Source: Geodermatophilus sp. DSM 44513
Lineage (GTDB): Bacteria; Actinomycetota; Actinomycetes; Mycobacteriales; Geodermatophilaceae
Length of the DNA: 64,000 nucleotides
Reading direction: 5' to 3'
Assembly (NCBI RefSeq): GCF_032460525.1
Contig: NZ_CP135963.1
Coordinates: 2,480,001 to 2,544,000, forward strand
Shown: positions 44,698 to 59,445 of the stretch, one piece after another
Layout of the letters: every line of letters begins with the position of its first letter
Numbering within the stretch: position 1 is the first letter of the stretch
Notes under the pieces: model-generated
What the model saw: only the letters and a program-made list of their open reading frames with translations
What the model was told of the DNA's origin: nothing
The model's database searches: none
Program-made: the position numbers and the translations under genes

Positions 44698-45215
44698 GGG
44701 CGGACCCCCGGGCGCGACCCGGTGTGCCCGGCGGCTCCCAGCACCTCGTCCACCGTCCGGGCGACGTCCCGCCGGGCGTCCTCGAGGCCGGCCTCGTCGA
44801 CGTCGAGGACGTAGACGAGGAGGGTGCCGGAGGGCCGGTCGACGTCGACGGTGAGCGTCGCCGGGGTCAGGGACAACCGGTTGGCGATCGTGGCCACGAG
44901 CAGGTCCGACGGCGGCACCGACCGCTCGGGCAGCCGCACCGCCAGGACGGCCGAGCGGGCGGCCGGTCCGCGGCGCAGCACCGCCCGGGCCACGTCCACC
45001 GTGGACGTCAGCTGGTCCACCGCGAAGCGCCCCAGCGCGCGCAGCGAGGCCAGGGCCCGCGGTCGCGACCGCGTGCCGAGGGCCGGCAGCCGGCAGGCCG
45101 CCAGGCACAGGGGCGCGACCAGCAGCCCGGACAGCAGCACCGCCGGCGACAGGCTGCCCCACAGCAGCACCCAGACGACCAGCAGCCAGCCGGTGGTCAG
45201 GACGCGGCCGGTCAC
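44694..45215 (-). CDS. mrpE: Na+(K+)/H+ antiporter subunit E
   Basis: 173 residues. Two N-terminal membrane helices (VVWVLLWGSLSPAVLLSGLL) precede a soluble domain with AVLAVRLPERSVPPSDLLVATIANRLSLTPATLT (split), the MnhE signature where RLSLTPGT usually occurs. The C-terminal VLDVDEAGLEDARRDVARTVDEVLG is typical. GTG overlaps the mrpD stop. Part of the Mrp complex in the membrane. Confidence 0.92.
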   Translation of the reverse strand: MTGRVLTTGWLLVVWVLLWGSLSPAVLLSGLLVAPLCLAACRLPALGTRSRPRALASLRALGRFAVDQLTSTVDVARAVLRRGPAARSAVLAVRLPERSVPPSDLLVATIANRLSLTPATLTVDVDRPSGTLLVYVLDVDEAGLEDARRDVARTVDEVLGAAGHTGSRPGVRP

Positions 45216-46747
45216 GGCTGCGCCTCCTCGCCGAGCACGGCCGCCCGGTAGCCCGCGCGGTCCGCGAGGTCGGCCGCGGCCCGGCCGGCGTAGGCCGACA
45301 GCGGGCCGGCGGCGGCGGCGAGGGTCAGGCCGGCCACCACCGCGAGGACGGCGGCCGCGGTCATGAGCCCGCCCGCGCGGCGGGTCGCCGTCGCCGCCCC
45401 GACGCCGCCGCGCCGCTCCTCCCCCGGTGGCTCCCCCCAGAAGGCGCGCGCCCACACCCGGGCCACGGCGGCCAGCGTAAGCAGGCTGGTGAGCAGCGCG
45501 ACCGCCGCGACGGCCAGCACCGCCGCCGTCCCGTCGCCCACCGCGGCCTGCAGCAGTGCCAGCTTCCCGATGAAGCCGGCCAGCGGGGGGATGCCGCCGA
45601 TGCTCAGCGCCGGCACGAGGAACAGGACGGCGACCAGCGGCGCGCTGCGGGCCAGCCCGCCCAGCTGCGCCAGCGCCGTCCCGGAGCGCTCCCGCTCGGC
45701 CAGGCCGGCGGTCAGGAACAGCGCCGACTGCACCGTGACGTGGTGGACGAAGTACAGGATCGTCCCGGTGAGCCCGGCGACCGACGACACGGCCAGGCCG
45801 AACAGCATGAACCCGATGTGCGAGACGAGCACGAAGGAGAGCACCCGGTTGAGGTCCTCCTGCACTAGCGCGCCGAGGACGCCCACCAGCATCGTCGCCG
45901 CGGCCAGCGCGAGCAGCACCGCCCACGGCTCGTCCCGGGGGAACAGCAGCGTCTGGGTGCGCACGATCGCGAACACGGCGACCTTGGTCAGCAGGGCCGC
46001 GAACACCGCAGTCACCGGGGCCGGCGCGGCCGGGTAGCTGTCGGGCAGCCACCAGTGCAGCGGCACCACGGCGGCCTTGACGCCCAGGACGGTGAGCAGC
46101 AGGAGCCCGAGGAACTGGCGCAGACCCGGGTCCAGCGCGGGCACGGCGGCGGCCAGCTGGGCCAGGTTCAGGGTGCCGGTGACGGCGTAGACCAGCCCGA
46201 TCGTGGTGAGCAGCAGCAGCGTGGCCGTGAGGCTGGAGCTCACGTACACCATGCCGGCCCGCACCCGCTCCGACGTGGGCCCCAGCGTGGTCAGCACGTA
46301 GCTGGCCATGAGCATGACCTCGAGGCCGACGAACAGGGTGAACAGGTCGCCGGTGACCAGCACCAGCGAGATGCCGGCGACCAGGACGAGGTAGGCCGGG
46401 TGGAACACCGACGGCACGTTCTCGATCCGCCGCTCCGCGCTGCCCTGCCCGATGGCGTAGAGCAGGACGGCCAGGCACACCACCACCGCGACGAGCAGCG
46501 CCAGCGCGGCGAAGCGGTCCGCGACCAGGGTGATGCCCAGCGGTGGCGCGTGCCCGCCGGCCTGGAGCACCTGCCGTCCCGAGGTGTCGACGACGGCGAG
46601 CAGCACGGCGGCGTCGACCAGGACGGCGACGAGGACGGCCAGGCCGAGGACCCGCTGGGCGGTGGGCCGGGGGCTCAGCAGCAGCGAGAGCGCCGCGCCG
46701 AGGAGCGGCAGCGCCACCGGCGTGGACACCAGCAGGGTGGCGCTCAC
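45212..46747 (-). CDS. mrpD: Na+(K+)/H+ antiporter subunit D (NuoN/M-like)
   Basis: 511 residues with about 14 helices. The proton-path residues are kept: Glu143 in LFVGLEVMLMASY and Lys224 in LGVKAAVVPLHWWLPD. Further marks are AALLTKVAVFAIVRT, SFVLVSHIGFMLFG and FFVHHVTVQSALF-like. MrpD is one of two antiporter-like subunits related to complex I NuoM/N. The start overlaps the mrpC stop and its stop overlaps mrpE. The C-terminal loop between helices is Arg/Gly-rich, somewhat long. Confidence 0.95.
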   Translation of the reverse strand: MSATLLVSTPVALPLLGAALSLLLSPRPTAQRVLGLAVLVAVLVDAAVLLAVVDTSGRQVLQAGGHAPPLGITLVADRFAALALLVAVVVCLAVLLYAIGQGSAERRIENVPSVFHPAYLVLVAGISLVLVTGDLFTLFVGLEVMLMASYVLTTLGPTSERVRAGMVYVSSSLTATLLLLTTIGLVYAVTGTLNLAQLAAAVPALDPGLRQFLGLLLLTVLGVKAAVVPLHWWLPDSYPAAPAPVTAVFAALLTKVAVFAIVRTQTLLFPRDEPWAVLLALAAATMLVGVLGALVQEDLNRVLSFVLVSHIGFMLFGLAVSSVAGLTGTILYFVHHVTVQSALFLTAGLAERERSGTALAQLGGLARSAPLVAVLFLVPALSIGGIPPLAGFIGKLALLQAAVGDGTAAVLAVAAVALLTSLLTLAAVARVWARAFWGEPPGEERRGGVGAATATRRAGGLMTAAAVLAVVAGLTLAAAAGPLSAYAGRAAADLADRAGYRAAVLGEEAQP

Positions 46748-47133
46748 CGGGTCTCCTCGACCGGGGGCTGCCGGTCCCCGCCGTCCCCGGCGAGGGCGTC
46801 CTCCACCGCGTCGGGGACGTCGTCGTCCCCGTGCAGCGTCACGCTGCGGTCGGCGAGGGCGAGCAGCAGCGCGGTCACCGCGAGGGTGATGACGACGGCG
46901 GTGACGGCCAGGGCCTGTGGGAGGGGGTCCGCCGCCTCGCGCGGCGCCACCTCGCCCACCACGGGCGCCGGGCCCGCCGGGCCGCCGGCAACGAGCAGCA
47001 CCAGGTTGGCCCCGTGCCCGATCAGCACGAAGCCCAGGACGACGCGCAGCAGGCTGCGCTGCAGCAGCAGGTAGGCGCCCCCGGCGAACAGCGCCCCGAC
47101 GACCAGGGACAGCGTCACGTTGCCCGTGCTCAC
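46744..47133 (-). CDS. mrpC: Na+(K+)/H+ antiporter subunit C (NuoK-like)
   Basis: 129 residues. Three helices with LLLQRSLLRVVLGFVLIGHGANLVLL and PLPQALAVTAVVITLAVTALLLAL (split), where DPLPQALVLTAIVI is the MnhC signature. Related to NuoK. GTG overlaps the mrpB stop. A C-terminal acidic tail of about 30 residues extends it beyond the usual 110. Conserved acid residues for proton transfer are less obvious than in NuoK. Confidence 0.93.
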   Translation of the reverse strand: MSTGNVTLSLVVGALFAGGAYLLLQRSLLRVVLGFVLIGHGANLVLLVAGGPAGPAPVVGEVAPREAADPLPQALAVTAVVITLAVTALLLALADRSVTLHGDDDVPDAVEDALAGDGGDRQPPVEETR

Positions 47134-47654
47134 GCGACCCCCTCGGCGTCCTCGTCGGAGGGCTCGCCGGCGCCGAGCACCCGCAGCACGTCGGCGGTGA
47201 GCCCGACGACGACCAGGGCGGTCCCCGACTCGAAGACCAGCGAGGACGGCACCTCGACCGGGCCGAGCAGCCAGACCTCGCCGTGCCACACCGCGCCGGC
47301 CAGCAGCTCGTCGGTGAGCACCACCCCCGTCAGGGCGTACCCGGAGACGAGCAGCAGCCCGGTCCCGAGCACCAGGCCGGCCGGCAGCGGGCTGGCCGCC
47401 GCCAGCTCGCGCGGCCCGCCGGCCAGCCGGCGCAGCACCAGCCCGAGGCCGGCGACCAGGCCCGCGATGAAGCCGCCGCCGGGGTGGTGCAGGCCCACCA
47501 CGAGCAGGTACACGGCGACCACCAGGATGCCGGGGTGCAGCACCCGGGCCAGGCCCTCCAACAGCAGGGACCGCTCGGCGGGGTCCTGGTGCTCCGCGGC
47601 CGGGAGCAGCCGCTCGCCGGGCGCCGCCGCCGGCCACCGGTGTGCGTCGGTCAC
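47130..47654 (-). CDS. mrpB: Na+(K+)/H+ antiporter subunit B
   Basis: 174 residues. The MnhB domain shows LARVLHPGILVVAVYLLVVGLHHPGGGFIAG (split) and FESGTALVVVGLTADVLRVLG. HHPGGGFIAGL is the hallmark. The first 35 residues are a soluble extension. GTG overlaps the mrpA stop (GTGA) and its stop overlaps mrpC. Confidence 0.93.
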   Translation of the reverse strand: MTDAHRWPAAAPGERLLPAAEHQDPAERSLLLEGLARVLHPGILVVAVYLLVVGLHHPGGGFIAGLVAGLGLVLRRLAGGPRELAAASPLPAGLVLGTGLLLVSGYALTGVVLTDELLAGAVWHGEVWLLGPVEVPSSLVFESGTALVVVGLTADVLRVLGAGEPSDEDAEGVA

Positions 47655-50008
47655 GCCGTCTCCCTCTCCTGCTCGGGCTCCTGCCGGGCTGCCTCGGCCT
47701 CTCGCGGGGCACCCGGCGGCGGGGCGCCGGCGCGGGGCGTGCCGCGCAGCCGGCTGGTCACCAGCACGAGGCTGGCCACCCCGGACGCGGCGATGGTCAG
47801 CACGGTGACCTCCCCGAGGGTGTCCAGCGCCCGGAACTCGCTGATGATCACGTTGACCACGTTGGGGCCGCCCTCGGCCGGTGCCTGGGCGAAGTAGCCC
47901 TCGACCGAGCGGGACCGCACGTGCCGGGCCGAGGCGGTGAGCGTGGCCAGGGTGGCGAAGGCCCCCACGAGCAGGGCGGCGACGGCGCGCAGCGCCCACA
48001 GCGGCTGCGGCGGCCGGCGCACCTCCGCCGGCATCCGCCGGATCACCAGCACGAAGACCAGCAGGGTCAGCGTCTCGACGAGCAGCTGGGTGAGCGCGAG
48101 GTCCGGCGCCCCGTGGACGAGGAACAGCAGCGCGACCAGGTAGCCGACGGCGGACAGGACCAGGACGGCGGTCAGCCGGCGCCGGATGAGCACCACGCCG
48201 GCCGCGCCGGCCACGACGGCGGCGCCGACCACGGCCTGGGCCGGCACGTCCCACGGCCGGAACCGGTCCGGGACGCCGGACTGCACGAGCAGCACGCCGC
48301 CCGGGCCGAGGGAGACGACGAGCAGGACCGCGAGCAGGTAGCCCGGCAGCGAGCCGACCTGGGTCCGCCGGGTGAGCACCCCGGCCGCGGCGATCAGCCA
48401 GCCGGCCAGCCGGTCCTGACCGCGCTCGGCGTCCGGCAGCGCGGGCAGCGCGCGGCGCGCCGCGTCGACCCGGTCGCGGGCCAGGTGCACGGCCACCCCG
48501 CCCACCAGCGTGAGGACCGACAGCGCCAGCGCCGGCCCGAGGCCGTGCCAGAGGGCCAGGTGGTGGTCCGGACCGGTGTAGCCGTCGGCGTACCCGGCGG
48601 CCAGCGCGTCGACCGCGGACGGCAGGAGCCCGCCGACGACACCGGCGACGGCCAGCACCGCCGCCGGGACGACCAGCCCCGGCGACGGGCGGTGCGCCAT
48701 CGGCTGCTCGACGCCCGGCCGGTCGGCGAAGGCCCCCCACAGGAAGCGTGCGGTGTACGCCACGGTCAGCACCGACCCCGCGACGATGCCGGCCAGCACC
48801 CAGCCGTGCCCGGCCCCCGGCTCCAGGAACGCCTCGAAGGCGGCCTCCTTGCCCAGGTAGCCCAGCGTCGGCGGCAGCCCGGCCATGGACAGGCAGGCCA
48901 GCCCGGCGACCGCGGCGAGGGCCGGCGCCCGCCGGCCGACCCCGCTGAGCGCACGGAGGTCCCTCGTGCCGGCCTCGTGGTCGATGACGCCGACCACGCA
49001 GAACAGCGTCGCCTTGAACGCCGCGTGCGCCAGCAGCATCCCGGCGCCGGCCAGGGCCGCGGTGCGGGTGCCCGCGCCCAGCAGCACGACGAGGAAGCCC
49101 AGCTGGGCGATGGTGCCGTAGGCCAGCAGCCGCTTGAGGTCGGTCTGGGCCAGCGCGCGCCAGCCCCCCAGCAGCATCGTGACCACGCCGACGACGAGCA
49201 CGACCGGCCGCCACGGCAGCACCTCGGCCAGCGCCGGGGCGAGCCGGGCCACCAGGTAGACGCCGGCCTTCACCATCGCCGCGGCGTGCAGGTAGGCGCT
49301 GACCGGGGTCGGGGCCACCATGGCCGCCGGCAGCCAGGGGTGCAGCGGCGCCTGGGCGGACTTGGCGAACGCGCCGACCAGCACGAGGACGGCGGCGGCC
49401 GCGGCCTGCGTCCCGGTCGGTGGCGACGCCACGATCGCGGACAGGCGGTAGGTGCCGGCCGCGTCCCCGAGCAGCAGCAGGCCGGCCAGCAGCGCGAAGC
49501 CGGCACCGGTGGTGACCAGCAGCGCCCGGACCGCCGCCGTCCGGTGCTCCCGGTCGGGCCCCCCGTCGCCGATCAGCAGGAACGAGCAGACGGTGGTCAG
49601 CTCCCAGGCCACGTACAGGGCCAGCACGTCGTCGGCGAGGACGAGCGCGAGCATGGCGCCGGCGAAGAACACCAGCACGCCGGCCGTCCGCGCCATCCCG
49701 TCCCGGCGGTCGGCGAAGTAGCGGACGCCGTAGGACAGCACGAGCGTCCCGACCCCGGTCACGACGAGGCCGAGCAGCAGCGACAGGCCGTCCAGCCGCA
49801 GCGGCACCTCCAGGCCCAGGGCCGGCGCCCAGCTGAGCGACGCCTCCGCGGGGCGGCCGGCCAGGACGTCCGGCGCGACGGCGACCAGCCAGCCGAACGA
49901 CGCGGCCGGGGCCAGTGCACCCACGGCGAGTGCCCGGGAGCCGAGGCGGGGGGCGAGGGCGGCGGCGCCCACGGCGAGCAGCAGGTGGGCGGTGAGGAGG
50001 GCGATCAC
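47651..50008 (-). CDS. mrpA: Na+(K+)/H+ antiporter subunit A (NuoL-like)
   Basis: 785 residues. The NuoL-like part has Glu136 in YVAWELTTVCSFLLIG and Lys216 in GAFAKSAQAPLHPWLP. STPVSAYLHAAAMVKAGVYL-like and LAYGTIAQLGFLVVLL follow. The C-terminal third carries the MbhD/E-type extension (VGYLVALLFLVHGAPDLALTQLLVE; FRALDTLGEVTVLTIAASG), as in all MrpA proteins. First gene of the operon; the GTG start faces a 628-base spacer shared with the complex I-like operon. Expected to exchange Na+ or K+ for protons with MrpB-G. Confidence 0.95.
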   Translation of the reverse strand: MIALLTAHLLLAVGAAALAPRLGSRALAVGALAPAASFGWLVAVAPDVLAGRPAEASLSWAPALGLEVPLRLDGLSLLLGLVVTGVGTLVLSYGVRYFADRRDGMARTAGVLVFFAGAMLALVLADDVLALYVAWELTTVCSFLLIGDGGPDREHRTAAVRALLVTTGAGFALLAGLLLLGDAAGTYRLSAIVASPPTGTQAAAAAVLVLVGAFAKSAQAPLHPWLPAAMVAPTPVSAYLHAAAMVKAGVYLVARLAPALAEVLPWRPVVLVVGVVTMLLGGWRALAQTDLKRLLAYGTIAQLGFLVVLLGAGTRTAALAGAGMLLAHAAFKATLFCVVGVIDHEAGTRDLRALSGVGRRAPALAAVAGLACLSMAGLPPTLGYLGKEAAFEAFLEPGAGHGWVLAGIVAGSVLTVAYTARFLWGAFADRPGVEQPMAHRPSPGLVVPAAVLAVAGVVGGLLPSAVDALAAGYADGYTGPDHHLALWHGLGPALALSVLTLVGGVAVHLARDRVDAARRALPALPDAERGQDRLAGWLIAAAGVLTRRTQVGSLPGYLLAVLLVVSLGPGGVLLVQSGVPDRFRPWDVPAQAVVGAAVVAGAAGVVLIRRRLTAVLVLSAVGYLVALLFLVHGAPDLALTQLLVETLTLLVFVLVIRRMPAEVRRPPQPLWALRAVAALLVGAFATLATLTASARHVRSRSVEGYFAQAPAEGGPNVVNVIISEFRALDTLGEVTVLTIAASGVASLVLVTSRLRGTPRAGAPPPGAPREAEAARQEPEQERETA

Positions 50009-50636
50009 AGGCGTCGGCGGCCCGGCGTCGCGCCGGACCGTCCGTTCCCGCGCCAGGCGGCCCCTCGGTCCCTCACACGGCCCCCCGGTGCCCGACCGCC
50101 CGCGACCTCACCCGTCCGGCCCGGCGCAGGACGGTCGGCTGCGGCGCCAGCTGGGTCACGTCACTCCCCGGACGGCGGTGCGCCGTCGTCCACCCGGGCC
50201 GTGGACCGGGACAGCCGGTGCGGGACCGCTCGGGGCTGGAACGGCGACCGGCTGACCCGAACCTACGGCGACCCCCGAGGCGACGCGACCGGTGAGGGTG
50301 GTCCGGAGATGACGATCCGGTGACGGACTGCAGGCGCGGGCCGCGGGGCGCGGGCAGCGACGGCCCCGCAGCGAGGGGTGAGCCCGACCGGACCGGGTAA
50401 GGGGTGGACGGCCGTGGAGCGGCCGCCCGGGGTCGCCGGACGACCCCCAGGACGACAGCCGGCCGTCCGCCCCGTCCGAGCGCCGACGCGCCGGTCGGCC
50501 GCCGGTCCGCGAGGACGACCTGGGTCACCGACGCCCGCGTCATCCGTACAGTCGTCCGGGTGTCTGGGCCGCCAGCCCAGGCCGACCGCCCGCCGACCAC
50601 GCCCGTGCCCGCAGGACCGACCGGAGGTGCGTGCCC
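50009..50636. other. 628-base divergent spacer between mrpA and the complex I-like operon
   Basis: No convincing gene was found on either strand. Open frames here are Arg/Gly/Pro-rich and look like chance translation. TACAGT at 50547-50552 could be a -10 box for the rightward operon, about 70 bases upstream of its ribosome site, with a weak GTCACC at the -35 position. The size leaves room for regulators of both operons. Confidence 0.4.
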
Positions 50637-50981
50637 GTGCTCCTCGCTGCTGCCCTCATGGCGCTGCTCGGCCTGGGCGGTGCGGCCGTGGCCGTGCTGG
50701 TGCACCGGTCGACCGCGGTGGCCCCCACGGCGGTCCCCTCGCTGCCGTTCCAGTCCGGGTGGCGGCCGCGGGAGCACGCGCTGTCCCGCTTCCACGCGCG
50801 CTACTACCCGCTCACCCTGCTGTTCCTGGCCTTCGACGTGGAGATGCTCTACATGTACCCGTGGGCCACGGTGGTGGCCCGCGTCGGCGTCTCGGCGGTC
50901 GTCGAGATGTTCGCCTTCCTCGCCGTGCTGATGGGCGGCGTCGTGTGGGCCTGGCGCGAGGGGGCCCTGCGGTGGACCTGA
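50637..50981 (+). CDS. Complex I-like subunit A (NuoA-like)
   Basis: 114 residues with three membrane helices. The NuoA signature is ALSRFHARYYPLTLLFLAFDVEMLYMYPWA (split), with the acidic FDVEM motif intact; the canonical form is FLIFDVEVAFLYPWA. FAFLAVLMGGVVWAWREGALRW ends the protein. GTG at 50637 is 9 bases after GGAGG; a GTG two codons earlier is also in frame. In complex I NuoA helps hold the quinone module to the membrane arm. The next gene starts inside this one (10-base overlap). Confidence 0.9.
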   Translation: MLLAAALMALLGLGGAAVAVLVHRSTAVAPTAVPSLPFQSGWRPREHALSRFHARYYPLTLLFLAFDVEMLYMYPWATVVARVGVSAVVEMFAFLAVLMGGVVWAWREGALRWT

Positions 50982-52144
50982 ACCGCCGGCTGGCCACCGC
51001 CGCGGCCGGCCGGGTCGCGGCGCTCGTGGTGACCGTGCCGGGCTGGGAGGTCACCCGCTACGCCGTCGAGCGCCTGCTCCGGGAGCGCGGCTGGCGGGCG
51101 GCCCTGTCCCCCGCCGACGCCGACGTGCTGGTCGTCTGCGGCCCGCCCGGCCGGCGGCTGTCCCGGGCCGTCGACCTGGTGTGGGACCAGCTGCCCGGGC
51201 CGCGGGCCCGCGTGACCGCAGTGGTCGCGTCCGCGGCCGGCGCGGCCCTGGACCAGGCGGTCACCGAGCTGCTGGACGGTGACCGGCAGCGCGGGGACGC
51301 CGCCGGCCGGCCGGCCGACCCGGTGATGGGCACGCTCCCGGACGAGGACCCGGACGCCGAGGAACCCGACGCCGAGGACCCCCACGGGGAGGACCCCCAC
51401 GGGGAGGACCCGGACGGCAGCGACACGGACCACGGCGACCACGGCGACACGGACCACGGCGACCACGGCGACATGGACCACGGCGACATGGACATGGAGA
51501 GCGACATGGCGCCCGGGGGCATCCCGCTCGCCGAGGGCGGTACGGGTGACCGGGACGGCCTGGACCTCGACGTCCTGCACGTCCCGCTGGGCCCGGTGCT
51601 GCCCTGCTGGCCGGCCGGGCTGCTGCTGCACTGCACGCTGTCCGGCGACGTCGTGACCGACGTGCGACCGGAGGTGCTCGGGCCCGCCGACGGTGCGGCA
51701 CCGGGCCGGTCGGCGTCCGGGACGCCGGTGGACCGGCTGGACCGTGCCGCTCAGCTGCTGACCCTGGCCGGCTGGGCAGCGGCGGCCACCGAGGCGGCCC
51801 GGCTGCGGGACGACCTGCTCGCCGACGGTGCCGGCCCGGACGTCGCGGCGCGGCTGGACCGGCTCGCCCGCCGGGTGGGCCGGTCGCGGCTGCTGCGCTG
51901 GTCGCTGCGCGGGACCGGGGCGGTCGACGCCGGCACCTGCACCGCGCTGGGGATCGACCCCCGGGCCGTCGGCGATGTACACGACCGGCTGGTCGGGCTG
52001 CTCGCCGGCGCCCGCGACGCCACCGACGCACCGTCCGTCCCGCTGGCCGCGCTCCCCTCCCTGCTGCGCGGCCTCGAGCTCGGCGCCCTGCGGCTGACCG
52101 TCGCCAGCCTCGACCTCGACCCGAGCCCGGCGGTCGTGCCGTGA
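50972..52144 (+). CDS. Degenerate NuoB-like/NuoD-like fusion with His/Asp-rich linker
   Basis: 390 residues. Residues 1-105 resemble NuoB by WEVTRYAVERLL, PADADVLVVCGPPG and VWDQLPGPRARVTAV (canonical: RQADVxIVAG, LYDQMPEPKWVI). None of the four N2-cluster cysteines is at its expected position. Residues 120-180 are an acidic, His-rich linker with repeats GEDPH and DHGD. Residues 195-390 look like a shrunken NuoD or group 4 hydrogenase large subunit: VPLGPVLPCWPAGLLL replaces MGPQHPSTHGVL, and LPSLLRGLELGALRLTVASLD matches the C-terminus (ASLDP). The catalytic middle is absent. No Fe-S or Ni ligand set is seen. Overlaps nuoA-like and nuoH-like genes. Probably a structural coupling subunit; that is inference. 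Confidence 0.65.
   Translation: MDLNRRLATAAAGRVAALVVTVPGWEVTRYAVERLLRERGWRAALSPADADVLVVCGPPGRRLSRAVDLVWDQLPGPRARVTAVVASAAGAALDQAVTELLDGDRQRGDAAGRPADPVMGTLPDEDPDAEEPDAEDPHGEDPHGEDPDGSDTDHGDHGDTDHGDHGDMDHGDMDMESDMAPGGIPLAEGGTGDRDGLDLDVLHVPLGPVLPCWPAGLLLHCTLSGDVVTDVRPEVLGPADGAAPGRSASGTPVDRLDRAAQLLTLAGWAAAATEAARLRDDLLADGAGPDVAARLDRLARRVGRSRLLRWSLRGTGAVDAGTCTALGIDPRAVGDVHDRLVGLLAGARDATDAPSVPLAALPSLLRGLELGALRLTVASLDLDPSPAVVP
51370..51510. repeat. Short tandem repeats coding an Asp/His/Gly linker
   Basis: Two 15-base units for GEDPH are followed by 24-base units for DTDHGDHG and shorter DMDHG units. All are in frame and form the linker of the NuoB/NuoD-like fusion. The peptide has about seven His within 45 residues. 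Confidence 0.7.
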
Positions 52145-53082
52145 GCCCGGTCGACGTCACCCAGGTCCCCGCGGTCTGGACGCCGGTCGCCGCGGTGCTG
52201 CTGCTGGCCCTCGCCGGCGCCGCGGCGGCCCTCGACGGCGCCGTCGCCGGCCGGGCCGAGGGTCGCTCGTGGCGCGCGGGGGCCGGCGTGCCCTGGGCGG
52301 AGACCGCACGGCTGCTGCGCCAGCGGCGGCGCACGACGGTGGCCGCCGACCGGCTGCTGTGGCAGGTCGCGGTCGCCGGCCTGCTGGTCACCGCGCTGCT
52401 GAAGACCGTGGTGGTGCCCCTGGGCAGCTGGACGCTGTCCGACCTCCCGGTGGGCATCGTGTGGTTCAACGCCATGGACGTGCTCGTCTGGGCGCTGGTC
52501 TGGCTGGCCGGCTGGGGCCCGAACAGCGCCCACTCCCTCGTCGGCGGCTACCGGTTCCTCGGCCAGGCGCTGTCCTACGAGCTGCCGCTGATGTTCGCGC
52601 TCACCGCGCCGGCGGTGGCGGCGGGGAGCCTGCGGGTGGGCGACGTCGTCGCCGCCCAGCAGGGGCTGTGGTTCGCCGTCTGGATGCCGGTGGCCTTCGT
52701 CGTCTACTGCGTCGCGGTCGCCGGCTTCGCCGCCTGGGGGCCGCTCGGCGCACCGGTCGGGACCGACGTCGCCGGCGGCGTCCTCACCGAGACCTCCGGC
52801 GTCGACCGGTGGCTGCTGCAGGCCGGCCGGTGGGCGCTGCTCACCGCCGGTGCGGCGTTCGGGGTCGCCCTGTTCCTGGGCGGCGGCTCCGGCCCGCTGC
52901 TGCCGGCCTGGCTGTGGTCCGTCGGGAAGACCGCCGCGCTGCTGGCCGCGTTCGTGGTGGCCCGCCGGCACCTGCCCACGCTGCGCCCGGACCGGATCGC
53001 GCCGGCCGCGTGGCTCGTCGTCCTGCCCCTGGTGCTGGTGCAGCTGCTCGTGGTGTCCGTCGTCGTGCTGGGGAGGGGCTGA
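52141..53082 (+). CDS. Complex I-like subunit H (NuoH-like)
   Basis: 313 residues, about eight helices. NuoH-like parts are LLWQVAVAGLLVTALLKTVVVPLG, GGYRFLGQALSYELPLMFAL and VVLPLVLVQLLVVSVVVLG. The quinone-site loop is altered: the canonical NRxPFDLxEaExELVAGYhtEYSG becomes GTDVAGGVLTETSGVD-like, losing most of its acidic residues. This suggests weakened or different quinone binding. GTG overlaps the stop of the fusion gene (GTGA). The nuoJ-like gene starts 1 base after its stop. Confidence 0.85.
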   Translation: MSPVDVTQVPAVWTPVAAVLLLALAGAAAALDGAVAGRAEGRSWRAGAGVPWAETARLLRQRRRTTVAADRLLWQVAVAGLLVTALLKTVVVPLGSWTLSDLPVGIVWFNAMDVLVWALVWLAGWGPNSAHSLVGGYRFLGQALSYELPLMFALTAPAVAAGSLRVGDVVAAQQGLWFAVWMPVAFVVYCVAVAGFAAWGPLGAPVGTDVAGGVLTETSGVDRWLLQAGRWALLTAGAAFGVALFLGGGSGPLLPAWLWSVGKTAALLAAFVVARRHLPTLRPDRIAPAAWLVVLPLVLVQLLVVSVVVLGRG

Positions 53083-53083
53083 G

Positions 53084-53671
53084 GTGCTCGTCGACGTGGT
53101 GTTCTGGGTGCTCGGCGGGATCGCCGTCGCTGCCGGGGTCGCCGTCTTCACGGTGGACTCGATGGCCCGGGCCACCTACGCCCTGGCCGTGTCCTTCATC
53201 GCCGTCGGCCTGGCCCTGCTGCTGGTCGACCTGCAGTTCCTCGGCGTCATCACCGTGCTGATGATGACCATGGAGATGGCCATCATGGGCATCTACATGA
53301 TCATGTTCATGGGGATGAACCCCGCGCTCATGCCGATGAGCATGACCCACGGCAAGCGCATGGCCCTGACCGTCGCCGGCGGCACGTTCCTCCTGCTGGC
53401 CGCCGGCGCGCTGCTGGTGCCCTGGCCGGCCCGGCGGGGCGCCCCCGCGGCCGACCTCACCGTCGCCCTGGGCGAGGCGGTCATGGAGTCGAAGATGCTG
53501 GTGATGATGACCGTCAGCCCGGTCCTCTTCGCCACGATCGTCGCGGCGATCGTGCTGGCCGTCCCCCGCGGCCGCTACGACCGGTTCGGCGACGACCTGC
53601 GCGGCCGGCCCGCGCCGGCGGGGGCCATGGAGCGCACGGCGGCGGACCCGGCGGACGGGGCGCCGCGGTGA
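53084..53671 (+). CDS. Complex I-like subunit J (NuoJ-like)
   Basis: 195 residues, five helices. VDSMARATYALAVSFIAVGLALLLVDLQFLGVITVLM (split) is the NuoJ core with the pi-bulge helix region and LQFLGVxxVLVYxGAIxVL pattern. In the canonical protein a Tyr-Gly follows; here MMTMEMAIMGIYMIMFM is Met-rich instead. GTG follows GGAGGGG. The stop overlaps the nuoK-like start. The Met-rich change may affect the hinge that couples quinone chemistry to proton transfer; this is inference. Confidence 0.85.
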   Translation: MLVDVVFWVLGGIAVAAGVAVFTVDSMARATYALAVSFIAVGLALLLVDLQFLGVITVLMMTMEMAIMGIYMIMFMGMNPALMPMSMTHGKRMALTVAGGTFLLLAAGALLVPWPARRGAPAADLTVALGEAVMESKMLVMMTVSPVLFATIVAAIVLAVPRGRYDRFGDDLRGRPAPAGAMERTAADPADGAPR

Positions 53672-53970
53672 CGCTGGAGACGGTGCTGCTGGTCGCCGCG
53701 GCCCTGTTCAGCGTGGGCCTGTACGGCGCGATCTCCCAGCAGGTGGTCGTCATGGTGATGATGGGCCTGGAGCTGATGCTCAACGCCGTCATCCTGGCCG
53801 CGGCCGGCTTCTGGTGGTTCCTCTCCCCCGCCCCCGACGGGCAGGTGCTCGTCCTGGTGGTGATCACCGCCATGACGGTGGAGATGGCCATGGGCTTCGC
53901 CGTCGCCACGCTGCTGCACCGCTCGCGGGACGCGGACACGACCGACACGGCCGCGGACCTGTCCCGGTGA
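53668..53970 (+). CDS. Complex I-like subunit K (NuoK-like)
   Basis: 100 residues, three helices. Both key glutamates of NuoK are at the canonical places: Glu35 in MGLELMLNAVILA and Glu72 in MTVEMAMGFAVA. Length is normal. The retention implies that the E-channel side of the membrane arm still works. GTGA overlaps on both sides. Confidence 0.9.
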   Translation: MTLETVLLVAAALFSVGLYGAISQQVVVMVMMGLELMLNAVILAAAGFWWFLSPAPDGQVLVLVVITAMTVEMAMGFAVATLLHRSRDADTTDTAADLSR

Positions 53971-56000
53971 CCGGGGCGACCCTGCTGCTGTGGACGGTGG
54001 TGGGCCTGCCGGCCGCCGCCGGGACGGCGCTGTGCCTGGCCGGGCGGCGGGCGGACCGCGCCGCGTGGGTGGTCTCGGTCGGGACGGCGGCGCTGGTGCT
54101 GGCCGCCGCGGTCGCGGTCGCCGGGCTGCGGCCGGCGACGTCGGTCCGGTTCCTGCCCGCCGCGGGGTTCGGGCTGGGCGTCGACGCGCTGTCCGCGGTG
54201 GTGCTGCCCGCGGTGGCCGCGGTCACGCTGCTGGTGCTGCTGTTCGCCGCGGCCGACGTCGAGGAGCGACCGGCCCGGTTCGCCGGCCTGCTGCTGCTGT
54301 TCGCCGCCGCGGTCGCCGTCACCGTCACCGCCACGACGCTGCCGGCACTGCTGTTCGCCTGGGAGGTGATGGGCGCGACCTCGTTCGCGCTGATCGGCCA
54401 CTCCTGGCGCGACCCCGGCCGGGTCGCTGCCGGCACCACCGCCTTCCTCACCACCCGCGCGGCCGACCTCGGCCTGTACCTGGCCGCCGGCGCGGCGCTG
54501 GCCGGCGGCGCCGGGCTGGCGCTGGCCGACCTGCCCGCCGCGGCCGCGCCGTGGCGGGACGTCGTCGCCGCCGGCGTGCTCGTCGCGGCGCTGGGCAAGG
54601 CCGCGCAGCTGCCCTTCTCGTTCTGGCTGTCCCGCGCGATGGAGGGCCCCAGCCCGGTCAGCGCCCTGCTGCACTCCGCGGCGATGGTGGCCATGGGCGG
54701 CTACCTGCTGCTGCGGACGCACCCGCTGCTGGCCGCCACCGGCTGGGCGGCGACCACCACCGCGTGGCTCGGCGCGCTCACCGCGCTGCTGATGGGCGCG
54801 GTCGCGGTCGCCCAGCGCGACCTCAAGCAGCTGCTGGCCGCCTCCACCTCCGCGCAGCTGGGCTTCGTCGTGCTGGCCGCCGGGGTGGCCAGCGTGTCGG
54901 GCGGGGTGGCCCACCTGGTCGCGCACGCCGCGACCAAGGCGCTGCTGTTCCTGGCCGCCGGGGCCTGGCTGACCGCGCTGGGCACCCGGCAGCTGCCGGC
55001 GCTGCGCGGGGCCGCCCGGCGGTACCCGGTGGTCGGGGCGTGCGCCACCGTGGGCGCGCTGTCGCTGGCCGGCGTCGCCCCGCTGTCGCTGTGGGCGACC
55101 AAGGACGACGTCCTGGCCGCGGCGCGGGAGCGGTCCCCGGCGCTGTACGCCGTCGGGCTGGCCGCCGCCGCGCTGTCGGCCGCCTACGCCGCGAAGGTGC
55201 TGTGGACCGTCTGGCGCGAGCCGCCGGCCGACGCGGCGCGGGGGTACGACACCGAGCAGCGCGGCACCCGGCGGGTGCACCGGCTGCAGCAGGGGCCGCT
55301 CCTCGTCCTCGCCGCCGGTGCCGCCGTCCTCGGCCTGCTGGTCTGGCCACCGGTGGGCGGCGCGCTGCGGGCCGCCCTCGGCGAGACCGGCGCCCCGCGG
55401 CCGGGCGCCGCCGAGCTGGTCGTCTCCGCCGTGCTGGCCGTCGCCGTGGTCCTGGCCGTCTTCCTGGCCGGGGTGCCGGGCGGAGCGCGCCGGCCGCTGC
55501 CCGAGCCGCGCTGGGCGGCCCGCTGGCTCGGCCTGGGTGAGGCGACGCAGGCGCTGGTGGTGCGGCCGGTGCTGCGCCTGGCCGGGGCGCTGGCCCGCTT
55601 CGACGACCGGGTGCTGGACCGGGCGGTCGACGCGGCGGGCGCCGGTGTCCTCGCGCTGGCCGGCGCCGGTGCCCGCGCGGACGACGCCGTCCTGGACCGG
55701 GCGGCCGGCGCGGCAGGCGCCGGTGTCCTCGCGCTGGCCGGCGCCGCAGCCCGCGCGGACGACGCCGTCCTGGACCGCGCCGTGGACGCGACCGCCCCCG
55801 GCACCCTGCGGGCGGCGCGGCTCACCGCGGAGGTCGGCGACACCGGCTTCGACGGCGCCGTGCAGGGCCTGGCCGCGGCCACCCGCGGCCTCGGCGGCCT
55901 GGCCCGCCGCACCCAGACCGGCCAGCTGCACCACTACTACGTCCAGGCCTCCGTGGTGTTCGCCGCCGCGCTGGGGCTCCTCCTGCTCGTCGCGAGGTGA
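53967..56000 (+). CDS. Complex I-like subunit L (NuoL-like)
   Basis: 677 residues. The antiporter fold has Glu133 in LFAWEVMGATSFALIG and Lys211 in ALGKAAQLPFSFWLSRAMEGPSPVSALLHSA (split). ATKALLFLAAGAWLTALG and SLWATKDDV carry the later lysines. The C-terminal long-helix region contains three copies of a 26-residue unit (DDxVLDRAVDAAGAGVLALAGA-type, cut here) where canonical NuoL has one fD-viDg motif. It ends in a last membrane helix (QLHHYYVQASVVFAAALGLLLL). GTGA overlaps on both sides. Likely a proton or cation translocator. Confidence 0.92.
   Translation: MTGATLLLWTVVGLPAAAGTALCLAGRRADRAAWVVSVGTAALVLAAAVAVAGLRPATSVRFLPAAGFGLGVDALSAVVLPAVAAVTLLVLLFAAADVEERPARFAGLLLLFAAAVAVTVTATTLPALLFAWEVMGATSFALIGHSWRDPGRVAAGTTAFLTTRAADLGLYLAAGAALAGGAGLALADLPAAAAPWRDVVAAGVLVAALGKAAQLPFSFWLSRAMEGPSPVSALLHSAAMVAMGGYLLLRTHPLLAATGWAATTTAWLGALTALLMGAVAVAQRDLKQLLAASTSAQLGFVVLAAGVASVSGGVAHLVAHAATKALLFLAAGAWLTALGTRQLPALRGAARRYPVVGACATVGALSLAGVAPLSLWATKDDVLAAARERSPALYAVGLAAAALSAAYAAKVLWTVWREPPADAARGYDTEQRGTRRVHRLQQGPLLVLAAGAAVLGLLVWPPVGGALRAALGETGAPRPGAAELVVSAVLAVAVVLAVFLAGVPGGARRPLPEPRWAARWLGLGEATQALVVRPVLRLAGALARFDDRVLDRAVDAAGAGVLALAGAGARADDAVLDRAAGAAGAGVLALAGAAARADDAVLDRAVDATAPGTLRAARLTAEVGDTGFDGAVQGLAAATRGLGGLARRTQTGQLHHYYVQASVVFAAALGLLLLVAR
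55599..55800. repeat. 78-base tandem repeat in the nuoL-like gene
   Basis: Units start near 55602, 55680 and 55758 and are highly similar, the second and third nearly identical. They encode a 26-residue amphipathic unit (GAGVLALAGAGARADDAVLD) in the region of the lateral helix of NuoL. Confidence 0.8.
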
Positions 56001-57487
56001 GTGTGCTCAGCCTGATCGTGTTCCTCCCGCTGGCCGCCGCGGCCGTCCTGGCGGCGTCGACCGGCGTCCCCGACCGCGTCGCGCGGTGGGCGTGGCTGGC
56101 GGTGACGGTCGCCGAGCTGGGCCTGGTCGGCGCGGCGGTCGCCGCCTACGAGACCCCGCCGGCGGGCGGGCTGGCGTTCGAGGAGCGGGCGCGCTGGATC
56201 CCGTCGGTCGGCAGCAGCTACCACGTGGGGGTCGACGGGCTGTCGCTGCCGCTGCTCGCGCTGACCGCGGTCGTCTTCTGCGCCTGCGCCGTCTACGCCC
56301 TGCGCGAGCAGCGCCGCCCCCGGGTGCAGGCGGCGCTGTTCTGCTTCCTGCAGTCGGTGTGCCTGGGCGTGTTCGTCGCCCAGGACCTCATCCTGTTCTT
56401 CCTCTTCTTCGACCTGTCCATCGTGGGCATGTACGCCGTGATCGCCGGCTGGGGCCACGGGGACGCCGGCCGGTCGGCGCTGAAGTTCTTCCTCTACACC
56501 TTCCTCGGCAGTCTGGCGCTGCTGCTGGGCTTCATCGGCCTGTACCTCGCCGCCGAGCCGAACACCTTCGACATCCCGGAGCTGGTCGCCGCCGCGCCGC
56601 TGGCCGACGACCCGGTGGTCGGGGGGCTGGTGCTGGGCGCGATCCTGCTCGGGCTGGCCGTCAAGACGCCGACCGTGCCGTTCCACACCTGGCTGCCGCC
56701 GGCACACACCGACGCCCCGGCCATCGGCTCGGCCGTGCTCGCCGCGGTGCTGCTCAAGCTGGGCACCTACGGGTTCGTCCGGATCGCCATGCCGATGTTG
56801 CCCGGCGCCTGGCGGGCCTGGGCCTGGGTGGTCATCACCATCGGCGTCGTCTCGGTCCTCTACGGAGCCCTGGTCGCGCTCGCCCAGACCGACGTCAAGC
56901 GGATGATCGCCTACACCTCGGTCAACCACATGGGCTACGTCGTCCTCGGGGTGGGCGCAGCCGGGCTGGCCGGGGACGCCGCCGCGCGGGAGGTGGCCGT
57001 CACCGGGGCGGTGACCCAGATGGTCAGCCACGGCCTGATCACCGGGGCGCTGTTCCTGCTCGCCGGGGTGCTGCAGGACCGCCGCGGCAGCTACGAGATG
57101 GCCGAGTACGGCGGCCTGGCCGCGCCCGCCCCGCGCTTCGCCGCGCTGTTCGCGATCGGCGCGTTCGCCTCGCTGGGGCTGCCCGGGTTCAGCGGCTTCG
57201 TCGCCGAGTTCCAGGTCTTCGCCGGCGCGATCGGCACCGCGGCCGCCGTGGCGGTGGCGCTACCGGGCATCCTGATCACCGCCGCGTTGTTCCTGCGGGC
57301 GATCCAGCGGCTGCTGACCGGGCCGACCGGCGGACGGTCGGTCGACTTCCCCGACCTGCGCGTCCGCGAGGCGGCGCCGGTCGGCGGCCTGCTGGTGCTC
57401 GCCCTGCTCATCGGCGTCGTGCCGTGGCCGCTGCTGGACCTGATCACCCCGGGCTCGGCCGCCGTGGTCGACCTGGTCAGCCGGTGA
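55997..57487 (+). CDS. Complex I-like subunit M (NuoM-like)
   Basis: 496 residues, 14 helices. The TM5 acid is Asp139 in LFFLFFDLSIVGMY, where NuoM usually has Glu. Lys223 (LAVKTPTVPFHTWLPPAHTDAP) and Lys254 (VLLKLGTYGFVRI) are kept. SVNHMGYVVLG and VTQMVSHGLITGALFLLAG are also canonical. GTGA overlaps on both sides. A functional antiporter-like subunit is expected. Confidence 0.93.
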   Translation: MSVLSLIVFLPLAAAAVLAASTGVPDRVARWAWLAVTVAELGLVGAAVAAYETPPAGGLAFEERARWIPSVGSSYHVGVDGLSLPLLALTAVVFCACAVYALREQRRPRVQAALFCFLQSVCLGVFVAQDLILFFLFFDLSIVGMYAVIAGWGHGDAGRSALKFFLYTFLGSLALLLGFIGLYLAAEPNTFDIPELVAAAPLADDPVVGGLVLGAILLGLAVKTPTVPFHTWLPPAHTDAPAIGSAVLAAVLLKLGTYGFVRIAMPMLPGAWRAWAWVVITIGVVSVLYGALVALAQTDVKRMIAYTSVNHMGYVVLGVGAAGLAGDAAAREVAVTGAVTQMVSHGLITGALFLLAGVLQDRRGSYEMAEYGGLAAPAPRFAALFAIGAFASLGLPGFSGFVAEFQVFAGAIGTAAAVAVALPGILITAALFLRAIQRLLTGPTGGRSVDFPDLRVREAAPVGGLLVLALLIGVVPWPLLDLITPGSAAVVDLVSR

Positions 57488-58890
57488 CGATGCGCCCGCT
57501 GGCGCTGCTGCCGGAGATCTGCCTGGTCGTCGGCGCGGTCGCCACCCTGCTGGCCGGCTCGTTCCTCCCGCGGCAGCGGCAGTGGGTCGCTCGGCTGGTC
57601 GCCGTCGCGGCCCTGCTGGGTGCCGGGGTCGCCACGGCCGCCGTCCTGGGCGACCCGCCGCAGCCGGCGATGATGGGCAACTACGCCGTCGACACCGGCA
57701 CGAACGTGCTGCGGCTGGTCGTGGTGGCCGCCACCCTGCTGGTCGTCGGCCTGGGCGTGGACGAGCTGGCCGGCACCCCGCGGGAGAGCGAGACCCACGC
57801 GCTGCTGCTGCTGTCCGCGCTCGGTGCGGTGGTCCTGGGCGGGGCCAGCGACCTGCTGGTGCTGCTGGTCGCCTTCCTGCTCGGCAGCATCCCGATCTAC
57901 GGGCTGGTCGGCGTGCTGCGCTCGCCGGGGGCGGCCGAGGCGGCGATGAAGACCTACCTGCTCGGCGCGCTGTTCGGCATCGTGCTGGTGCTCGGCGTCA
58001 CGGTGCTGTCCGGCGTCGGCGGCACCACCGCCTACCCCGGCCTCGCCACCGGGCTGGCGGAGGCCCCGCCCGCGGCCGTGGCCTTCGGGGTGCTCGCCGT
58101 CGTCGGCGGGCTGATGTTCGAGGCCGGGGGCGTGCCGGGGCACTTCTGGGTGCCCGACGCGACCCAGGCCGCCGGCACGCCGGTCGCGGCCTTCCTCAGC
58201 ACCGTGCCCAAGCTCGGTGCCCTGCTCGCCGTCTTCCGCCTGGTCCCCGTCGTCCCGGACACCGTGGACGCACCGCTGCTGGTGGCGGTCCTCGCCGCGG
58301 CGACCATGACGGTGGGCAACCTCGCCGCCCTCGCGCAGACCGACGTGCGCCGGCTGCTGGGGTGGTCGACGGTCAGCCAGGTCGGCTACCTGCTCCTCCC
58401 GGTCGCGGTGGCCGGCCGCAGCGCCGACGCGCTGCCCTCGCTGCTGGTCTACCTCGGCGGCTACGCGGTCACCAACCTCGCCGCCTTCGCCGTGGTCGCC
58501 GCCACGCCCGGACGGCGCACCGTCGAGGACTCCCGCGGCCTCGCGGCCTCCTCGCCGTGGCTGGCCGGGGCGCTGGTCGTGGCCCTGCTCAGCCTGGTGG
58601 GCACGCCGCCCACCGCCGTCTTCGCCGGCAAGCTGACCACCTTCACCGCGGCCTGGGACGGCGGCCTGGCCTGGCTGGTGGTGGTCGCGGCGGTCAACAC
58701 CGTGGTCAGCCTCGTCTACTACCTGCGCTGGCTCGCGCCGGTGTTCCAGCGGCCGGAGCAGGGCGCGCAGCCGCAGCGCCCGCGCCCGTTCGCCGCCGTG
58801 GCGGCCGTGCTGGCCGCGGCCTGCGTGCTCGCGCTCGGGGTGGGTCTGGGCGCCGTGTCTCCCCTGGTCGAGGGGACCCTCGCCCGCTGA
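57484..58890 (+). CDS. Complex I-like subunit N (NuoN-like) with altered channel residues
   Basis: 468 residues, about 13-14 helices. Overall NuoN similarity is clear (AMKTYLLGALFGI; VPGHFWVPDATQAAGTPVAAFLSTVPKLGALL, split; GWSTVSQVGYLLLP). The TM5 glutamate region reads FLLGSIPIYGLVG without an acid, and the TM7 lysine before the PFHFW motif is Glu213 (LMFEAGGVPGHFW). Lys243 and Lys383 (FAGKLTTF) remain. The proton path in this subunit may therefore differ. GTG overlaps the nuoM-like stop. Last gene of the operon; 12 bases separate it from the convergent DUF421 gene. Confidence 0.88.
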   Translation: MTMRPLALLPEICLVVGAVATLLAGSFLPRQRQWVARLVAVAALLGAGVATAAVLGDPPQPAMMGNYAVDTGTNVLRLVVVAATLLVVGLGVDELAGTPRESETHALLLLSALGAVVLGGASDLLVLLVAFLLGSIPIYGLVGVLRSPGAAEAAMKTYLLGALFGIVLVLGVTVLSGVGGTTAYPGLATGLAEAPPAAVAFGVLAVVGGLMFEAGGVPGHFWVPDATQAAGTPVAAFLSTVPKLGALLAVFRLVPVVPDTVDAPLLVAVLAAATMTVGNLAALAQTDVRRLLGWSTVSQVGYLLLPVAVAGRSADALPSLLVYLGGYAVTNLAAFAVVAATPGRRTVEDSRGLAASSPWLAGALVVALLSLVGTPPTAVFAGKLTTFTAAWDGGLAWLVVVAAVNTVVSLVYYLRWLAPVFQRPEQGAQPQRPRPFAAVAAVLAAACVLALGVGLGAVSPLVEGTLAR

Positions 58891-58902: not shown

Positions 58903-59445
58903 TCAGGCCCCCGTCCGAGGCTCCCGCCCCAGGCCCTCCGCCGCCCGCACGCCCTCGAGCGCCGAGCGGTTCCCGGCCTTCTCCCGCGGGATGACGCTCA
59001 GCGAGCCGTCGGTCTCCAGCACCACCGCGGCGATCGACGACAGGTCACCGGAACCGGTGGCCCGCACGGCCTGCCGCACCTCGTCGACCGTCACCCGCTG
59101 CTCGCGCAGCGCCGTCGGCAGGACGGCGCCGTCCCGCAGCAGCAGGGTCGGCCGGGCGGTGGCCGCCGTCCGCGCGGCCGGCCACCGGACGGTGACCGAG
59201 GCGACCGCGAACTGCAGCGCCGCCAGCAGCGCCAGCGCCGTCGCGCCCTCGGCCCACGACACGTCGCTGCTGAGCAGGATGGTCGCCAGCGTGGACCCCA
59301 GCGCCACCGTGACGACGAGGTCGAAGGCGTTGAGCTTGGCCAGCGTGCGCTTGCCGGACAGCCGCAGCACGACGACCAGGGTCAGGTAGGCGGCGGCGCC
59401 CACGGCGAGGATGCGGCCCACGTCGGACCACGAGTCGAACCACAC
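58903..59445 (-). CDS. DUF421 (YetF-like) membrane protein
   Basis: 180 residues. The start VWFDSWSDVGRILAVGAAAYL and the block LRLSGKRTLAKLNAFDLVVTVALGSTLATILLS (split) are highly conserved in DUF421. Three helices are followed by a small soluble domain (LLLRDGAVLPTALREQRVTVDEV). GTG at 59445 follows GGAG. It is last in the operon that starts with the molybdopterin enzyme, 2 bases after the antiporter stop. Function in the family is unclear; spore-coat and stress roles are reported. Confidence 0.92.
   Translation of the reverse strand: MWFDSWSDVGRILAVGAAAYLTLVVVLRLSGKRTLAKLNAFDLVVTVALGSTLATILLSSDVSWAEGATALALLAALQFAVASVTVRWPAARTAATARPTLLLRDGAVLPTALREQRVTVDEVRQAVRATGSGDLSSIAAVVLETDGSLSVIPREKAGNRSALEGVRAAEGLGREPRTGA

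Follow-up and report, generated by a model that had tools for sequence, protein, structure and literature searches.

A complex I-like operon built around a NuoB-NuoD fusion

We analysed a window of 64,000 nucleotides from Geodermatophilus sp. DSM 44513 (contig NZ_CP135963.1, positions 2,480,001 to 2,544,000 of the forward strand), which contains an operon resembling the membrane arm of complex I. Eight genes on the plus strand, in the order nuoA, fusion, nuoH, J, K, L, M and N, occupy positions 50631-58890, each overlapping its neighbour or lying at most 2 bases from it (Table 1). All eight genes of the single, tightly overlapped operon described in a first-pass annotation of this DNA are thus present. 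The expected Pfam family was found in seven of the eight proteins (NuoA, H, J, K, L, M and N). The eighth, the fusion, gave no family match in a Pfam scan and only a weak NuoB match in NCBIfam (E 7e-4), and its identity was derived from a profile search and an AlphaFold model. Both bear out the NuoB/NuoD-like fusion proposed earlier, in the form of a shrunken NuoB, a linker and a shrunken NuoD. The top Foldseek match of the model is chain B of bovine complex I (E 1.4e-3, TM 0.53 on the target, given without a residue range), which we take to be the NuoB homologue. The VIA-align rows span fusion residues 190-388; the NuoB half rests on sequence and on the top Foldseek match.

Table 1 Coordinates of the operon genes, of segments within them and of neighbouring features in the window
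Feature	Position	Strand	Description
nuoA-like gene	50631..50981	+	116 aa; PF00507, 1.6e-25
fusion gene	50972..52144	+	390 aa; NuoB and NuoD, both shrunken, with an acidic linker rich in His and Met between them
NuoB-like part of fusion	50972..51316	+	residues 1-115; one unrelated conserved cysteine, Cys56 (29/30)
linker of fusion	51317..51511	+	residues 116-180; rich in Asp/Glu, His and Met
NuoD-like part of fusion	51560..52132	+	residues 197-387; roughly half as large as NuoD
nuoH-like gene	52141..53082	+	313 aa; Pfam 7.8e-42
nuoJ-like gene	53084..53671	+	195 aa; Pfam 2.9e-10
NuoJ residues 60-89	53261..53350	+	helix 3 Met/Glu stripe M60, M61, E64, M65, M68, M72, M76, plus M78, M85, M87 and H89
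nuoK-like gene	53668..53970	+	100 aa; Pfam 3.3e-14
nuoL-like gene	53967..56000	+	677 aa; antiporter-like subunit; Pfam 4.6e-45
nuoM-like gene	55997..57487	+	496 aa; antiporter-like subunit; Pfam 1.8e-67; above NCBIfam NDH_I_M cut-off
nuoN-like gene	57484..58890	+	468 aa; antiporter-like subunit; Pfam 1.8e-51
Mrp-type antiporter operon	44099-50008	-	separate operon, divergent from nuoA; MrpA with MbhD and MbhE domains
YetF/DUF421 membrane protein	58903-59445	-	3' of nuoN
molybdopterin oxidoreductase	61858-64303	-	814 aa; extends past window end; nearest redox gene, about 3 kb downstream of the operon
IcmF-like protein	10861-14094	-	fused methylmalonyl-CoA mutase, MeaB-type GTPase and B12-binding domain

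Loss of the redox side

None of the four cysteines of NuoB that hold the N2 [4Fe-4S] cluster is found in the fusion by sequence alignment. The first-pass annotation, which took the redox side to be lost, had named two things that would speak against it, namely N2 ligands in the fusion and partner subunits encoded elsewhere; the former were looked for and not found. In an alignment of 30 fusions (A1), chosen from the best 120 of at least 747 found, the only near-conserved cysteines are Cys56, which aligns with an Ala of NuoB, and Cys221, which sits in the NuoD half; neither is an N2 position. Two of 14 distant fusions contain no Cys at all. The canonical cytoplasmic quinone-site loop of NuoH, ENRxPFDLPEAE, is replaced; it is partly kept (PFDLPTA) in Rubrobacteraceae. 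NuoC, E, F, G and I were not recognised among the neighbouring genes scanned, in agreement with the earlier statement that they are missing and that no replacement adjoins the operon.

A second, canonical set of nuo genes, which the annotation had proposed to look for, lies 1.3 Mb away: the sole PF00346 (NuoD) and PF01512 (NuoF) matches of the 4.63 Mb, single-contig genome are found there, surrounded by canonical NuoA, H, J, K, L, M and N genes. Canonical NuoD occurs outside the operon in 32 of the 35 carrier genomes sampled. The exceptions are G317, with no match, and G264 and G290, where the fusion itself is the only match, all less than 90% complete; the match in G386 is partial. The draft genomes of Arthrobacter echini and Quadrisphaera granulorum matched neither NuoF nor canonical NuoD. 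Thus, as to INDEPENDENCE from complex I, the operon need not borrow modules, and it does not in general depend on partner subunits encoded elsewhere. For these two carriers borrowed canonical modules were rejected, though most carriers have NuoD. Also rejected as a partner was the molybdopterin oxidoreductase downstream of the operon, a formate-dehydrogenase-like gene that does not recur beside other loci; past it, beyond the window end, neither a NuoE-, F- or I-like gene nor any other electron-input gene was seen by eye. This oxidoreductase fits models of formate dehydrogenase and (assimilatory) nitrate reductase better than NuoG (E 1.1e-17; 64 bits, where the cut-off is 470), and for each of the named families shown, the part within the window scores under the cut-off.

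A membrane arm with most proton-path charges and a methionine stripe

Much of the proton path looks retained, as the annotation had noted for NuoK, L and M. NuoL E133, K211, H236 and K379 and NuoM K223, K254 and E404 are invariant in the 32 clade members, and the position of the Glu of NuoM transmembrane helix 5 (TM5) carries Asp in 27 and Glu in 5 of them (Asp139 in the window). NuoK E35 is likewise kept in all 32, E72 being Glu in 30 and Asp in 2, and NuoA retains E71 at the position of the canonical E81. The glutamates of NuoA, J and K belong to the E-channel of complex I. By eye, the C-terminal third of NuoL holds an amphipathic segment repeated about three times (ARADDAVLDRAVDAAGAGVLALAGA-like), at the place of the lateral helix of complex I.

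New to this arm is a pattern of Met and Glu residues. Every Met, Glu and His listed in Table 1 for NuoJ residues 60-89 is present in 152 of 152 clade sequences, a set that is biased towards the pattern because it includes the 120 best matches of the search with A2, an alignment of 14 NuoJ sequences. In the window and 31 further loci the pattern is unselected, since these were found through the fusion. The Met positions of helix 3 share one helix face. Canonical NuoJ has no such stripe; its position 61 is Tyr in 21 of 21 sequences, the helix 3 pi-bulge tyrosine, and its position 64 is Ala or Ser. Beside NuoA E71, Met72 and Met75 are found in 31 of 31 clade members, against Ile and Leu in the canonical NuoA of the same genome, and NuoK has clade-specific Met29, Met31 and Met69 in 32 of 32. 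Met thioethers are among the ligands of Cu(I) and Ag(I).

A metal-binding domain is present at the corresponding place of relatives: in Rubrobacteraceae, the Pfam heavy-metal-binding domain (HMBD) lies inside the fusion linker. The L055 fusion seemingly has two HMBD-like motifs. The fusions of two mycobacterial plasmids (L066 and L071) are annotated 'DUF4779 domain-containing protein', a name probably owed to their His-rich linker.

Conservation and spread of the operon

The annotation had suggested seeking the same gene order in other genomes. The order A-BD-H-J-K-L-M-N was seen at each of the 31 chromosomal loci examined besides the window, with few blemishes: L002 lies at a contig end and starts within the fusion, frames are broken in the fusions of L014 and L016 and in the NuoJ of L014, and the fusion of L057 is visible only by reading the frames. 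With a NuoJ profile, the operon type was detected in 35 of the 396 genomes sampled from the window's phylum, to which the genome searches were confined, at 36 loci in all, and a wide gap separates these loci (at least 162 bits) from the next match (74). In the NuoJ tree the operon type forms one clade (100/100), with long branches on the canonical side. Carriers belong to families both inside and outside the window's class and include soil and sputum isolates; one family of the sample, f19, judged by names to be the Rubrobacteraceae, accounts for 19 of the 36 loci. Protein searches returned at least 747 fusions and at least 3157 NuoJ relatives, the latter number possibly including canonical NuoJ at that E-value. 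A single non-actinobacterial name appears among the matches listed, the Chromatiales metagenome bin P0335, which may be misbinned.

Fourteen plasmid records carry the operon, and 11 of these loci were read (left out were H5, H7 and H9, further M. avium plasmids). In one genome (G195), two copies, L055 and L056, lie on contigs of 4.4 Mb and 205 kb, with CsoR and CopA near both. Several operon genes of the Ornithinimicrobium plasmid L075 have no coding sequence in the gene table, which may reflect decay of this copy or an incomplete table.

Copper-resistance genes accompany many relatives, and CsoR-type operators some

Genes of copper resistance recur around the operon. Within 8 kb of NuoJ, CsoR was found at 20 of 36 loci and CopA at 14 of 36, against 0.37 and 0.39 expected from whole genomes. 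DUF305, whose proteins are linked to copper, lies within 12 kb at 13 of 36 (0.59 expected), and the control family Fur was found at 1 of 36 (0.62 expected). The CsoR and DUF305 counts did not depend on whether one weak match among 80 rows for CsoR and 11 among 84 for DUF305 (4 of them second pieces, 7 weak or fragmentary) were left out or kept. Copper-type genes (CsoR, CopA-type ATPase, DUF305, multicopper oxidase, Csp1-like protein, cupredoxin) occur in the flanks, read over unequal lengths, of 15 of the 31 chromosomal loci. Not counted were a CsoR-cluster member of FrmR-like look in L013 and a large P-type ATPase of calcium-type look in L063. At the latter locus, a Csp1-like copper storage protein (L063:4392-4781; DUF326, TIGR04401 under its cut-off) is encoded directly 5' of nuoA. 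The best NCBIfam match of the CsoR proteins of L009 and L055 is RicR, under its cut-off. Of the 11 plasmid copies read, 8 have a gene for copper or heavy metals no more than 14 kb away. On the Arthrobacter sp. FB24 plasmid a multicopper oxidase gene lies directly 5' of nuoA, with genes for DUF305 and a sulfocyanin-like protein further up; on Curtobacterium pC1a, a multicopper oxidase, DUF305, a metal-sensitive regulator, an HMA protein and an ATPase precede nuoA.

Operator sites point the same way in part of the relatives. Of 42 loci, made up of 30 chromosomal ones, 11 on plasmids and that of the window, 8 have the motif TACCC-N5-GGGTA within 450 bp 5' of an estimated start of nuoA, five of them (L008, L009, L014, L059 and L067) within 200 bp of nuoA. 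When the spacer was freed to 2-8, all eight sites still had 5. Five 510-bp intervals 3' of the nuoA start contained the operator in no locus, and upstream intervals, where some loci have other copper genes, contained it in 0, 2 and 2 loci. The sites before nuoA match the Streptomyces CsoR type 2 consensus as given in PMC3902906 (ATATACCCCTNAGGGGTATAT, TAC-X9-GTA).

Together, these results make the association of the clade with copper well supported and probable. The copper-resistance neighbourhood of many relatives, the metal-binding linker, the NuoJ Met stripe and the changed NuoN described below had escaped the first-pass annotation.

Setting in the window

The genes flanking the window operon encode the Mrp operon, YetF/DUF421, a Na+/H+ exchanger, Gpr1/YaaH and the molybdopterin oxidoreductase. 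Domains of MrpA-G, including MbhD/MbhE, are found in the neighbouring operon (47651-50008) and none in the nuo-type operon. In Modestobacter sp. DSM 44400 (L004), an ArsR-type regulator lies between nuoN and a YetF/DUF421-like gene. At some distance, the window also holds an IcmF-like gene (Table 1).

A candidate proton-driven copper transporter

We propose that the operon encodes a complex I-derived, redox-free machine that handles copper, most likely a proton-driven transporter of Cu(I) or a similar soft metal serving copper resistance. We hold this reading with evenly balanced confidence; it agrees with the annotation's suggestion, the best of those it made, of a transporter driven by a reaction other than a redox one. 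Taken by itself, the claim that the complex moves Cu(I) falls at or just below the midpoint between likely and unlikely. The identity of the metal, its transport, direction and coupling, and the stoichiometry are matters that we infer.

In its boldest form, in which the electron input was deleted, the quinone module became a metal-binding cap and the E-channel a Met relay, with proton flow driving the export of Cu(I), the reading is somewhat less than an even bet. In the proposed mechanism, the NuoBD fusion would cap the membrane arm at the former dock of the quinone module. On the cytoplasmic side its linker, with His, Met and acidic repeats or, in Rubrobacteraceae, the HMBD, would capture the metal and hand it to the Met/His loop and methionine stripe of NuoJ. 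This stripe, with Met and Glu of NuoA and NuoK alongside, would replace the hydrated E-channel. Protons entering through the antiporter-like subunits would then push the metal outward by long-range coupling, as in complex I run in reverse. The role of the window copy is read from its relatives, because it is a member of the clade by sequence but has no copper neighbourhood; presumably it does as its copper-linked relatives do.

Several observations weigh against this proposal. The neighbourhood signal comes mostly from one family, to which 17 of the 20 CsoR-adjacent loci belong: without the Rubrobacteraceae the counts fall to 3 of 17 for CsoR (0.13 expected), 1 of 17 for CopA (0.14) and 3 of 17 for DUF305 within 12 kb (0.13), with Fur at 0 of 17 (0.22). 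The stretches read at 16 of 31 chromosomal loci and at three of 11 plasmid copies (Rhodococcus, Gordonia and Pseudarthrobacter) hold no copper gene, and regulators of ArsR/SmtB type, not CsoR, adjoin L004, L005, L018, L054 and L064 (L005 and L064 checked). Three of the eight operators (L053, L070 and L074) lie further up, beside a csoR gene to which they may belong. At the window itself there is no copper gene among the flanking genes scanned and no operator of the TACCC-N5-GGGTA pattern upstream of nuoA, and the single CsoR of the genome lies about 360 kb from the operon. Met-rich membrane helices need not imply metal carriage. Finally, NuoN is altered: the TM5 Glu is replaced by Leu, Phe or Val in 32 of 32 clade members, and the TM7 Lys is Lys in 17 and Glu in 15 of 32 (Glu213 in the window, where K243 and K383 are present). 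Because the former is lost throughout and the latter in 15 of 32, this subunit, one of three antiporter-like ones, may move no protons. The view of the annotation that the proton-moving arm looks active thus stands for NuoK, L and M, that is for most of the arm, and is weakened for NuoN, which it had overlooked.

Much of the same evidence could be accommodated by a metal-gated or metal-stress-induced antiporter, in which the linker only senses metal, the arm exchanges Na+ or K+ for H+, or moves H+ alone, and ion balance or pH is protected while the metal itself is untransported. NuoK, L and M do retain an antiporter-like residue set, the Mrp antiporter illustrates that this subunit family can function without redox input, and the copper context and operator sites suit a stress response equally well. 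This explanation, however, leaves about ten invariant Met and a new Glu in helix 3 and the loop of NuoJ unaccounted for, and the extra Met beside the NuoA and NuoK glutamates sit in the membrane arm, not in a cytoplasmic sensor; we consider it unlikely. Osmotic or marine adaptation by a partial NDH-1, pumping Na+ or H+ so as to keep up a gradient in salt water, has been put forward for Salinispora, Streptomyces and Kocuria (PMC3314556, Penn and Jensen; PMC4018334, Ian et al.; PMC6002675, Sun et al.; PMC6676996, a Streptomyces comparison), and in the window the operon is indeed divergent from an Mrp operon. But an arm without redox chemistry can spend a gradient and not generate one, soil and sputum isolates are among the carriers, and the recurrent neighbours are copper genes. 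In its passages on the operon, PMC6676996 itself disputes a purely marine role and names a carrier isolate from copper-rich mine fluids. We regard this explanation as improbable.

Nor do we think it at all probable, and marginally less so, that the operon is a redox complex in disguise, with electron-input subunits borrowed from the canonical operon or supplied by an enzyme such as the molybdopterin oxidoreductase. The frequent presence of canonical NuoD in carriers, the single NuoF and single NuoD of the window's genome and the formate-dehydrogenase-like gene 3 kb downstream would allow for it, and a hybrid has been suggested for a different Streptomyces nuo2 cluster in the relevant part of PMC9239103. 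Against it stand the fusion without N2 ligands, the replaced quinone-side loop of NuoH, the two carriers without a NuoF or canonical NuoD match, and a molybdoenzyme that is not a recurrent neighbour. That the operon is a decaying copy of complex I without function is barely credible. NuoB and NuoD are shrunken and a few copies have frame breaks or unannotated genes (L014, L016 and plasmid L075), but eight genes are kept in constant order across families inside and outside the window's class, the new residues are invariant and the operon has spread on plasmids; for the family as a whole, conservation disfavours decay.

If the copper transporter reading is correct, a widespread operon now annotated as NADH-quinone oxidoreductase would be a copper machine instead of that enzyme or a sea-water pump, and many database entries would be misnamed. 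It would also provide a test of coupling in complex I, as the proton arm would have been kept and the driving reaction swapped, a natural uncoupling of the arm from redox chemistry. The retained parts would then mark what coupling needs and the lost parts what redox alone needs. A proton gradient used through a multi-subunit antiporter would be a new energy source for bacterial copper resistance and, to our knowledge, the complex would be the first metal transporter in the complex I superfamily.

Comparison with known systems

With complex I (NDH-1) the operon has in common a membrane arm of NuoA, H, J, K, L, M and N, in which most charges of the proton path are present, and remnants of NuoB and NuoD in their right places. 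It differs in that NuoC, E, F, G and I do not adjoin it, NuoB and NuoD are shrunken and fused and N2 is absent, as well as in its replaced NuoH quinone loop, altered NuoN charges, NuoJ Met/Glu stripe and metal-binding linker. The Mrp antiporter is a redox-free relative of the complex I arm with L/M/N- and K-type subunits in common; as far as we know, it has no NuoA, NuoH or NuoBD parts. With the Cu(I) exporters, CopA P1B-ATPases and Cus RND pumps, the operon type has in common copper islands, CsoR/RicR-type control, HMBD and Met-rich sites, whereas those exporters are ATP-driven or of RND type. We know of no bacterial Cu(I) exporter built from complex I subunits.

The 11-subunit complex I-like enzyme retains NuoB, C, D and I with their Fe-S clusters. 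The window operon retains no cluster site; it resembles that enzyme, as outlined in part of PMC11238625, in lacking NuoE, F and G, that is the NADH module.

The first-pass annotation was aware of no complex described with exactly these parts. The operon has been published, however, as the partial NDH-1 or partial nuo operon of Salinispora, Streptomyces and Kocuria, also under the name of marine adaptation genes, its fusion unrecognised and its function not established in the passages concerned. The order given in PMC6676996 (nuoA, hypothetical protein, nuoH, J, K, L, M, N) is, by description, that of the window, the 'hypothetical protein' corresponding to the fusion. A passage of PMC8622039 sets this operon apart from a nuoABCHIJKLMN cluster. 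We found no paper in the openly licensed PMC literature that ties the partial nuo operon to copper, and the word 'copper' is nowhere in the main text of a 2025 complex I census (PMC12361115); within the openly licensed literature searched, the copper interpretation of this published gene set is new. Where the passages on the partial nuo operon read it as a proton or sodium pump and leave the fusion, the metal features and the copper context unmentioned, the operon described here has all three, the last in part of its relatives. The Streptomyces nuo2 cluster (SCO4599-SCO4608) is similarly a second, partial nuo cluster in actinobacteria; part of PMC9239103 describes it as without NuoC, D, E, F, G and L, which leaves NuoB- and NuoI-type genes in place, and it is a distinct cluster.

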